Origin: an uncultured Pelagibacteraceae bacterium
GTDB lineage: Bacteria > Pseudomonadota > Alphaproteobacteria > Pelagibacterales > Pelagibacteraceae
NCBI GenBank assembly: GCA_905612535.1
Contig: CAJQSJ010000050.1
Span: 1 to 49,020 of the forward strand
Direction of reading: 5' to 3'
Length of the DNA: 49,020 nucleotides
Below the pieces are notes generated by a model. It did not search any database, was not told where the DNA came from, and was given only the letters and a program-made list of their open reading frames with translations. How positions within the stretch are numbered: position 1 is the first letter of the stretch; each line of letters opens with the position of its first letter. Shown here piece after piece: positions 24,245 through 41,901 of this stretch. The translations under genes were made by a program, and so were the position numbers.

Positions 24245-24565
24245 ATGGCAGTGAACAAAGCAAAATTTTCTATAGGTGACATAGTTAAACATAGGCACTT
24301 TAATTTTAGAGGTGTTATTTACGATGTAGATTTTGAATTTAATAATTCAGAGGATTGGTATACTTCTATACCAAAGGATGTAAGACCAAGAAAAGATCAG
24401 CCGTTTTATCATCTTTTGGCAGAAAATAATGAAATCACCTATGAAGCTTATGTTTCAGAGCAAAACCTAATTAATGATGATTCTGATGAACCGATTAGAC
24501 ACCCATTAATTGAGGAAATTTTTACAGGCAAAAAAGGATCAGGTTACTTTCGTCCCTCAAACTAA
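24245..24565 (+). CDS. hspQ: Heat shock protein HspQ
   Basis: FSIGDIVKHRHFNFRGVIYDVDFEF...RPRKDQPFYHLLAENNEITYEAYVSEQNL. Confidence 0.93.
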   Translation: MAVNKAKFSIGDIVKHRHFNFRGVIYDVDFEFNNSEDWYTSIPKDVRPRKDQPFYHLLAENNEITYEAYVSEQNLINDDSDEPIRHPLIEEIFTGKKGSGYFRPSN

Positions 24566-24629
24566 CAAAGTGACTTTGCCACAATCCCAACAAAATTCTT
24601 TCATGTGTTGGACAAATTTTTACTTTAAA

Positions 24630-24706
24630 TATTCAGTTAATGCCTAATTATGATCGTTTAAAGTATTCCTCCCTCTTTGAACTCCTAATTAGGCATACTT
24701 TGAATA
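24630..24706 (+). ncRNA. Candidate structured RNA or leader: three-tier hairpin with C-rich apical loop
   Basis: Stems TATTCA/TGAATA, ATGCCTAATTA/TAATTAGGCAT (11 bp perfect) and GTTTAAAG/CTTTGAAC (8 bp, one G-U); apical loop TATTCCTCCCT. Confidence 0.5.
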
Positions 24707-24770
24707 AATCATTAACTTTTTAATTACAAAAGCAGTTTATTTTTTACATTGAAAGTTATATATTTTAAGT

Positions 24771-25631
24771 ATGAGAAAAATAGCTTCAATTGCTTTAGCT
24801 TCCGTATTTATTTTATACTTTTCGAGCGCAAGTAGTTATGCTTTCTTTGGTATTTATAAAAATTACAATCCAATTTGTAAGAAATACGATTTTAGATGCA
24901 AAAGAAAAGCTCCCAAAATGACACAACAAGAAGCTGAAGAATATATTAATAAAACACATAAAAAAGTAGTAGTTGAAAAAGAAAAAGAAGCTAGAGAATT
25001 AGAGGATGTACAAATAGTTACTTCCTCAGAAGAAATCAAAAAAATTAAAAATAAACAAAAAAAAATATTAGGTATTTTTAATAACCCGTATGCCAATTCT
25101 AACCCAAAGTGTAAGAAGTATGATTATTATTGCAAAAGAACAGAACCTAAAGTTTATGTAGTTGAAACAGATCCAGAAAAAATGCTTGAGTTTGGTGTTG
25201 AAGACAATAACCAATTTAAATTATTTTCAGGTATGTTCGACTTCAGTGATCACAAACAAAGTGCAATTACTGTCGGCTTAGAACACCAAGACGAAAATTT
25301 ATATAGAAAAAGTTTTTTAGGAAAACTTTCTCCAATATCTGGAGGTTGGTTAACTGCGAACAAATCATTTTATTTTTATTCAGGAGTGCAAGCAGAGTAT
25401 GATTTGGGATTTGCAAGTTTTACACCTAGTTTTGCCCCCGGTTATTATGCAAGTGGAGATGGAAAAGACCTAGGTCATCCGCTAGAATTTAAAACAGAAG
25501 TTCAATTAGAAGTTGAGATATTGGAAAACTCTAATTTAGCTTTTTCTTACAATCATATATCTAATGCCAGTCTTGGAACAAAAAATCCAGGAGCTAATAG
25601 TTATATGTTTAATTTTTTGAAAAATTTTTAA
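24771..25631 (+). CDS. Acyloxyacyl hydrolase (PagL-like outer-membrane lipid A deacylase) with Cys-motif N-terminal region
   Basis: Signal peptide; C-terminal beta-barrel-like sequence ending LAFSYNHISNASLGTKNPGANSYMFNF (PagL-like HxSN region). Confidence 0.8.
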   Translation: MRKIASIALASVFILYFSSASSYAFFGIYKNYNPICKKYDFRCKRKAPKMTQQEAEEYINKTHKKVVVEKEKEARELEDVQIVTSSEEIKKIKNKQKKILGIFNNPYANSNPKCKKYDYYCKRTEPKVYVVETDPEKMLEFGVEDNNQFKLFSGMFDFSDHKQSAITVGLEHQDENLYRKSFLGKLSPISGGWLTANKSFYFYSGVQAEYDLGFASFTPSFAPGYYASGDGKDLGHPLEFKTEVQLEVEILENSNLAFSYNHISNASLGTKNPGANSYMFNFLKNF

Positions 25632-39457: not shown

Positions 39458-40024
39458 ATGAAATTTTTTCTTTTTATAATTTTGTTTTTCGTTAATTTTA
39501 TAGGTAACGCCAATGAAATGGATCCCTACAAAAAAGATTTTGAAAATATATTTAATATTGGAAAAATGTTGTCACATGATAAAAAATTCACTTTATTTTT
39601 TAAGTCAAGAGAAAAGGCTATTTTAGCCAAAGGTGAAAATTTTAATTATATTACAGATTTTCCTCAAGATTTATACATCCTGCATAACGGAACAAATAAT
39701 ATTAAACCATTAATTACTTACGATTGGTTTCCTAAAGCAGTAAAAAAATTATCCACTGCTTCTTACTTGCCAGTTTTTCCTGAAGATTATGCTTATTATC
39801 TCTTAAGTGACAACGAAACATTAATAATGATCAGCGGTGTAAAATCCATAAGATCAAATTTTAAATTTAGTCTTAAAACTAATAAGCTTGAAAAACTTCC
39901 TCTTAATAATAAATACAAATTATTTGTTTCTTCTTTGTTAAAAGATTGTGGTTATAAAAATATGAATTCAACTTATAAATGTTTGTATTATAAACCTTTA
40001 ATTTCAAAAAACCTTATTAATTAG
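39458..40024 (+). CDS. Hypothetical exported protein
   Basis: 188 aa with N-terminal signal peptide (MKFFLFIILFFVNFIGNANE). Confidence 0.6.
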   Translation: MKFFLFIILFFVNFIGNANEMDPYKKDFENIFNIGKMLSHDKKFTLFFKSREKAILAKGENFNYITDFPQDLYILHNGTNNIKPLITYDWFPKAVKKLSTASYLPVFPEDYAYYLLSDNETLIMISGVKSIRSNFKFSLKTNKLEKLPLNNKYKLFVSSLLKDCGYKNMNSTYKCLYYKPLISKNLIN

Positions 40025-41824: not shown

Positions 41825-41877
41825 CCTTTGGAAACAAAGGGATCGACACTAGTCAGCGAAGGTTCGCCCGCTAGTGT
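41825..41877 (+). promoter_or_regulatory. Structured leader upstream of ffh
   Basis: CCTTTG-GAAA-CAAAGG hairpin (41825-41840), then ACACTAG/CTAGTGT 7-bp stem (41846-41852/41871-41877) capped by GCGA-AGGT-TCGC (41856-41867). Confidence 0.6.
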
Positions 41878-41901
41878 AGTTTTTGTTGGAATAAAGGAAA
41901 T

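Follow-up and report, generated by a model that had tools for sequence, protein, structure and literature searches.

A conserved hairpin 3′ of hspQ is a predicted anti-Shine-Dalgarno small RNA of Pelagibacteraceae

The window (the entire 49,020-nt stretch of DNA from an uncultured Pelagibacteraceae bacterium analysed here) carries a hairpin on its + strand (24630..24706), directly 3′ of hspQ. Comparison with relatives supports a structured RNA that exposes an anti-Shine-Dalgarno-type loop. We read it as a separately transcribed, trans-acting and probably Hfq-independent anti-Shine-Dalgarno sRNA of Pelagibacteraceae, a prediction from sequence to which we give a probability of roughly 0.6.

A three-tier hairpin had been proposed at this position in an earlier sequence-only reading. 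The named arms and the 11-nt loop match the sequence, and RNAfold returned the same three tiers: an outer tier TATTCA/TGAATA (24630-24635 / 24701-24706), a middle stem formed by a 5′ arm ATGCCTAATTA (24640..24650) and a 3′ arm TAATTAGGCAT (24686..24696), and an inner stem formed by GTTTAAAG (24656..24663) and CTTTGAAC (24675..24682), closed by the apical loop TATTCCTCCCT (24664-24674). The loop contains most of the anti-Shine-Dalgarno-type seed CCTCCCTC (24668..24675), whose last C pairs within the inner stem in the window genome. On the + strand the hairpin has a folding energy of -24.8 kcal/mol (z = -8.6) and 0/200 shuffled sequences were as stable, confirming a structure far above chance, while the minus strand folds less stably (z = -5.2). 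As the same reading had noted, no U-tract follows the hairpin. We found no terminator-like site on the + strand and likewise no clear 3′ end. Like an intrinsic terminator, the hairpin stands after a gene; it differs by a large conserved loop, the lack of a constant U-tract and a covarying stem of 13-17 bp. An intrinsic terminator was rejected for the large loop and the missing + strand site.

The gene upstream, hspQ (YccV-like, PF08755, E 2.4e-28; 24245..24565, +), is 93% identical to its best named relatives, from uncultured Pelagibacteraceae, and was present in 89/100 relatives. The hairpin was found 3′ of hspQ in all 47 Pelagibacteraceae (family f1) genomes whose stretch after hspQ was readable; its stem begins about 60-80 nt past the hspQ stop codon and its loop carries CUCCCU or a one-base variant. 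Genomes of one genus are kin, so these counts are not independent events. Genomes G045, G053, G058 and G042 we tentatively take to be HTCC1062, HTCC7211, IMCC9063 and HIMB114, respectively; in G053 the hairpin occupies 287933-288004 (+). A covariance model built from the Pelagibacteraceae hairpins gave matches in 303/397 genomes of the order, nearly always in a single copy. The true number is at least this, since G030 and G042 escaped the fast filter but reached E 2.2e-6 in a more sensitive covariance search; even with that search, five further Pelagibacteraceae genomes gave nothing convincing. No second copy was found in the window's genome. In the sister family f2, where another gene comes immediately after hspQ, scores were at chance level only (E 0.36 or worse, in 2/15 genomes). 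Among 289 genomes sampled from the class, the sole extra match was in G581 (G581:C48:4201-4648), a genome classed in family f25; there the hairpin adjoins an hspQ 83% identical to that of the window, and the locus is probably a SAR11-like sequence or contig in that bin. At locus L026 of G048 (1888-2035) a downstream tandem duplication repeats the hairpin's 3′ half, including the loop seed and the right arm; it may be real or an assembly artefact. Another hspQ-like gene, divergent at about 40-46% identity, occurs at G000:C39:7157-7444 (L078) and in other genomes of genera g1 and g6; no such hairpin lies 3′ of it at the loci looked at.

The typical relative has a stem of 13-17 bp, unbroken up to the loop, and a loop mostly of 17-30 nt. 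By this comparison the element conserved across the family is the middle tier alone, and the inner 8-bp tier is the window genome's form of the loop-proximal stem. No counterpart of the outer 6-bp tier was found in relatives, the longest flank helix averaging 4.7 bp against 4.5 bp in shuffled flanks. We thus do not count this unconserved tier as belonging to the RNA; its left arm shares positions with the predicted -10 box described below.

Compensatory changes were observed at 16/16 stem pairs, with 155 double-change cells compared to 54 (sd 7) in shuffles and a stem covariation score of 0.56 compared to 0.30. When the partner column was slid, pairing fell from 92% to about 50% or less. The covariation persisted on a plain MAFFT alignment, which is not fitted to structure, and RNAalifold recovered the same stem unaided. 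With arms conserved and covarying to this extent, the structured RNA suggested by the sequence-only reading is strongly favoured. The core stem cells comprise 412 Watson-Crick, 46 G-U and 2 A-C combinations; since G-U exceeds A-C by 46:2, the + strand is the one that would act as RNA. This polarity bears on an element of the minus strand, which also folds (z = -5.2) and on which the loop had been noted to show a Shine-Dalgarno-like sequence (GGGAGGAATA): as far as sequence comparison reaches, the wobble pairs refute it, and, taken together with the large-looped terminator lacking a U-tract, it is very improbable.

While the stem sequence drifts, the seed, with the family consensus (AU)CUCCCU(C), is near-invariant in the 47 genomes and unpaired (mean probability 0.97), in agreement with the exposed anti-Shine-Dalgarno-type loop first described from the window. 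Such constancy also matters for the reading of the hairpin as an element of the hspQ 3′ UTR, serving stability or processing or yielding an sRNA by cleavage of the hspQ mRNA. In Pelagibacteraceae hspQ is always upstream of the hairpin, as this reading would have it, but a stability hairpin needs no near-invariant loop sequence and a plain UTR needs no 11-bp-periodic, DNA-like block with a -10 box, such as is found here (see below). We consider a 3′ UTR element rather unlikely.

The gene downstream is less constant. It is ccmC-like in eleven genera (g2, g3, g4, g5, g7 and g9-g14), a name that draws on general knowledge of the family and on a fragment that weakly matches the Pfam cytochrome c assembly family, and PagL-like (PF09411 in the window) in three (g1, g6 and g8). 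A 5′ leader acting in cis would be part of a transcript running from the hairpin into this downstream gene, controlling its translation or stability. The short and steady spacing in the eleven genera, where only about 60-85 nt separate the seed from the ccmC-like start codon, is consistent with such a leader, as is the promoter block upstream of the hairpin. However, the hairpin is still conserved in g1, g6 and g8, where the next gene is PagL-like; the ccmC leaders inspected have no GGGAG site for pairing with the loop; and in g1, the genus of the window, the PagL-like gene has a conserved block of its own before the start codon (GTTTATTTTT ... AAGGTTATATG, window 24733-24770), which looks like its own promoter. 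Because the downstream gene swaps while hspQ is fixed upstream, a leader for one particular gene, such as that starting at 24771 as once suggested, is disfavoured. A cis role as ccmC leader is possible in the eleven genera; as the general explanation we hold it to be unlikely. The same change of the downstream gene under a constant hairpin favours the trans-acting sRNA.

The gap between hspQ and the stem contains a predicted activator-binding block (24578..24613, +), delimited by column conservation and lag-11 autocorrelation. Cytosines 24580, 24591, 24602 and 24613 do not vary among 47 genomes; they are spaced at exactly 11 bp and sit in units like TTnnACA. Conservation is periodic at lag 11 by permutation (p = 0.0006, or 0.005 when all lags are considered). 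Further downstream, 13 bp past the last invariant cytosine, a conserved TA (24626-24627; T in 43/46 and A in 46/47 genomes) opens a predicted -10 box, TAAATA (24626..24631, +). The stem begins where a start site would be expected after a -10 box, which puts the putative transcription start at about 24638-24640, at the stem base. On the + strand we found neither a sigma-70 match that includes a -35 box nor a good -35 box. Such a layout is that of promoters activated by OmpR/PhoB-type regulators, and the gap block looks like an activator-driven promoter with its start at the base of the stem. An OmpR/PhoB-type DNA-binding domain is carried by four to five proteins in most of the genomes tested; the 58%-complete genome of the window shows two. 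When G024 and G058 were searched with the block for a regulon, the second match scored 16.2, below the maximum of 16.8 for the reversed-sequence control; the block thus occurs once per genome in both, and so looks dedicated to the hairpin locus. A secreted-looking protein found in 24/60 relatives (window 39467-40021, +; G024:C1:3712-4321, -) has in G024 an upstream sequence that resembles the promoter block, not above the reversed-sequence control.

We compared the hairpin with known RNAs. At gathering thresholds, an Rfam scan of the window returned only tRNA and the ffh motif and left the hairpin unmatched; up to E 5, six hairpin loci gave only two chance matches to unrelated families. The ffh sRNA motif (RF01793; window 41832-41884, +) is known and was first described in SAR11. 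The closest likeness in design is to two alphaproteobacterial sRNA families. AbcR1 and AbcR2 (alpha-r15, Rhizobiales) repress transporter mRNAs through the seeds CUCCUCCC and UUCCCCUC (PMC8844928). They share with the hairpin a loop-exposed, CU-rich anti-Shine-Dalgarno seed (CUCCUCCC compared to CUCCCU), and transporter genes, the targets of AbcR (PMC8844928), are also among the candidate targets predicted below. AbcR1/AbcR2 differ in having three stem-loops with two seeds, where here there is one hairpin with one seed, and in their locus; the SAR11 host moreover has no detected Hfq and the hairpin fails to match in Rfam. NfeR1 (alpha-r14, rhizobia) presents its seed CCUCCUCCC in three hairpins whose stem sequences drift (PMC10746234). 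Here too the seed is kept in unpaired loops (CCUCCUCCC compared to UUCCUCCC in the window), but NfeR1 has three seed-bearing hairpins instead of one, and the present hairpin has no Rfam match. Judged by sequence and fold, the SAR11 hairpin resembles AbcR and NfeR1 in design and belongs to neither family.

Meyer et al. 2009 described structured RNAs conserved in intergenic regions of SAR11, namely the SAM-V, rpsB, rpsL, ffh, rhtB, pntA, bablM and SAR11_0636 motifs; unlike the hairpin, none of them is located at hspQ (PMC2704228). Only regions of 26% GC or more were ranked in that screen (PMC2704228). The hspQ gap of the genome taken as HTCC1062 has 23.1% GC, below this cut-off, which is probably the reason that the screen did not pick up the hairpin. 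Among openly readable papers on SAR11 sRNAs we found nothing at hspQ. The hairpin may perhaps correspond to an unnamed transcript in the 2009 metatranscriptomic survey of ocean small RNAs cited by PMC3840354.

Candidate targets were sought by scanning the loop against all gene start regions of G024 (complete) and of 1.2 Mb of G058, with crude gene calls and about 85 kb of G058 left out, giving 851 ortholog pairs. Proteorhodopsin ranked first among these pairs with the longer loop (rank index 8 in each genome) and second with the core loop alone. Its leader in G024, AAAGAGGGAG, is complementary to 8 nt of the loop, CUCCCUCU. As a control, permuted loops gave an equally good top ortholog pair in 16/60 cases. 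AGGAG was shared at ortholog starts in 12 pairs (1.2 expected), Shine-Dalgarno motifs being generally conserved. The permuted loops and this general conservation between orthologs largely explain the proteorhodopsin ranks. Proteorhodopsin is thus the best target lead, only suggestive after the controls, and with amtB and transporter substrate-binding proteins it forms a set of candidate targets that we treat as leads only. GGGAG is rare at the Shine-Dalgarno position, with 8/1212 and 20/1243 genes. An AGGGAG-type site recurs in 9/15 Pelagibacteraceae proteorhodopsin leaders, for example at G024:C1:369389-370162 and G000:C60:5148-5900 (L258); GGGAG is missing from those of G004, G015, G027, G031, G030 and G026. 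No clear gene start in what was recovered of the window's genome has an 8-nt match to the loop, and the proteorhodopsin leader of that genome, AAGGGAGAA, showed no co-change with its altered loop, UUCCUCCC.

Hfq and ProQ are common, though not universal, in hosts of trans-acting sRNAs. Neither Hfq (PF17209) nor ProQ (PF04352) was found in eight SAR11 and sister-family genomes (0/8 each; G000, G003, G024, G058, G030, G026, G036 and G060), while positive controls were detected. A base-pairing sRNA here would therefore need to work without them, which is unusual for such sRNAs; the long stem may supply RNA stability in place of a chaperone. Alternatively, the loop could be a protein-binding site or decoy rather than an mRNA-pairing seed. 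Its conservation, yet with no secure mRNA target, and the failure to find Hfq and ProQ would fit this, but CUCCCU has its complement in sequences resembling ribosome-binding sites, and pairing is how the alphaproteobacterial RNAs known to carry such loops work. We regard a protein site as quite unlikely.

Taken together, what stood of the sequence-only reading is the structured RNA with its anti-Shine-Dalgarno loop; between the two roles it offered, the trans-acting sRNA is favoured over the leader, and its minus-strand sequence and outer tier were not upheld. The trans-acting reading is supported by the near-invariant, unpaired seed on a drifting stem, by the promoter-like block and by the seed logic of AbcR and NfeR1; counted against it are the lack of a clear 3′ end and of a statistically secure target, and the failure to find Hfq or ProQ. 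In this scheme an activator, such as a response regulator of the OmpR/PhoB type, would bind the 11-bp direct repeats and switch on the promoter in the hspQ-hairpin gap, and transcription would start at the stem base. The resulting + strand RNA would be a hairpin of 13-17 bp with (AU)CUCCCU(C) unpaired in its loop. In some mRNAs the loop would pair with a ribosome-binding site of the GGGAG type and, by analogy with the anti-Shine-Dalgarno seeds of AbcR1/2 and NfeR1, such pairing would block ribosome entry, here without Hfq. The most detailed version, an Hfq-/ProQ-independent, SAR11-wide sRNA induced by a response regulator through the 11-bp repeats and tuning the translation of proteorhodopsin and nutrient-uptake genes, is improbable as a whole.

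SAR11 are among the most abundant marine bacteria, with tiny genomes and little spare DNA, and are thought to have little regulation. A hairpin conserved with full covariation across 14 genera of such streamlined genomes must therefore be useful. It is in neither Rfam nor the published survey of SAR11 RNAs (PMC2704228), and with the covariance model it can be sought in existing ocean metatranscriptomes. If it is indeed a dedicated riboregulator, it would be one found in bacteria thought to have little regulation. As a trans-acting sRNA, it would mean that base-pairing regulation persists in streamlined cells apparently devoid of the usual RNA chaperones, and would offer a handle on how SAR11 control uptake genes and perhaps those for light harvesting.
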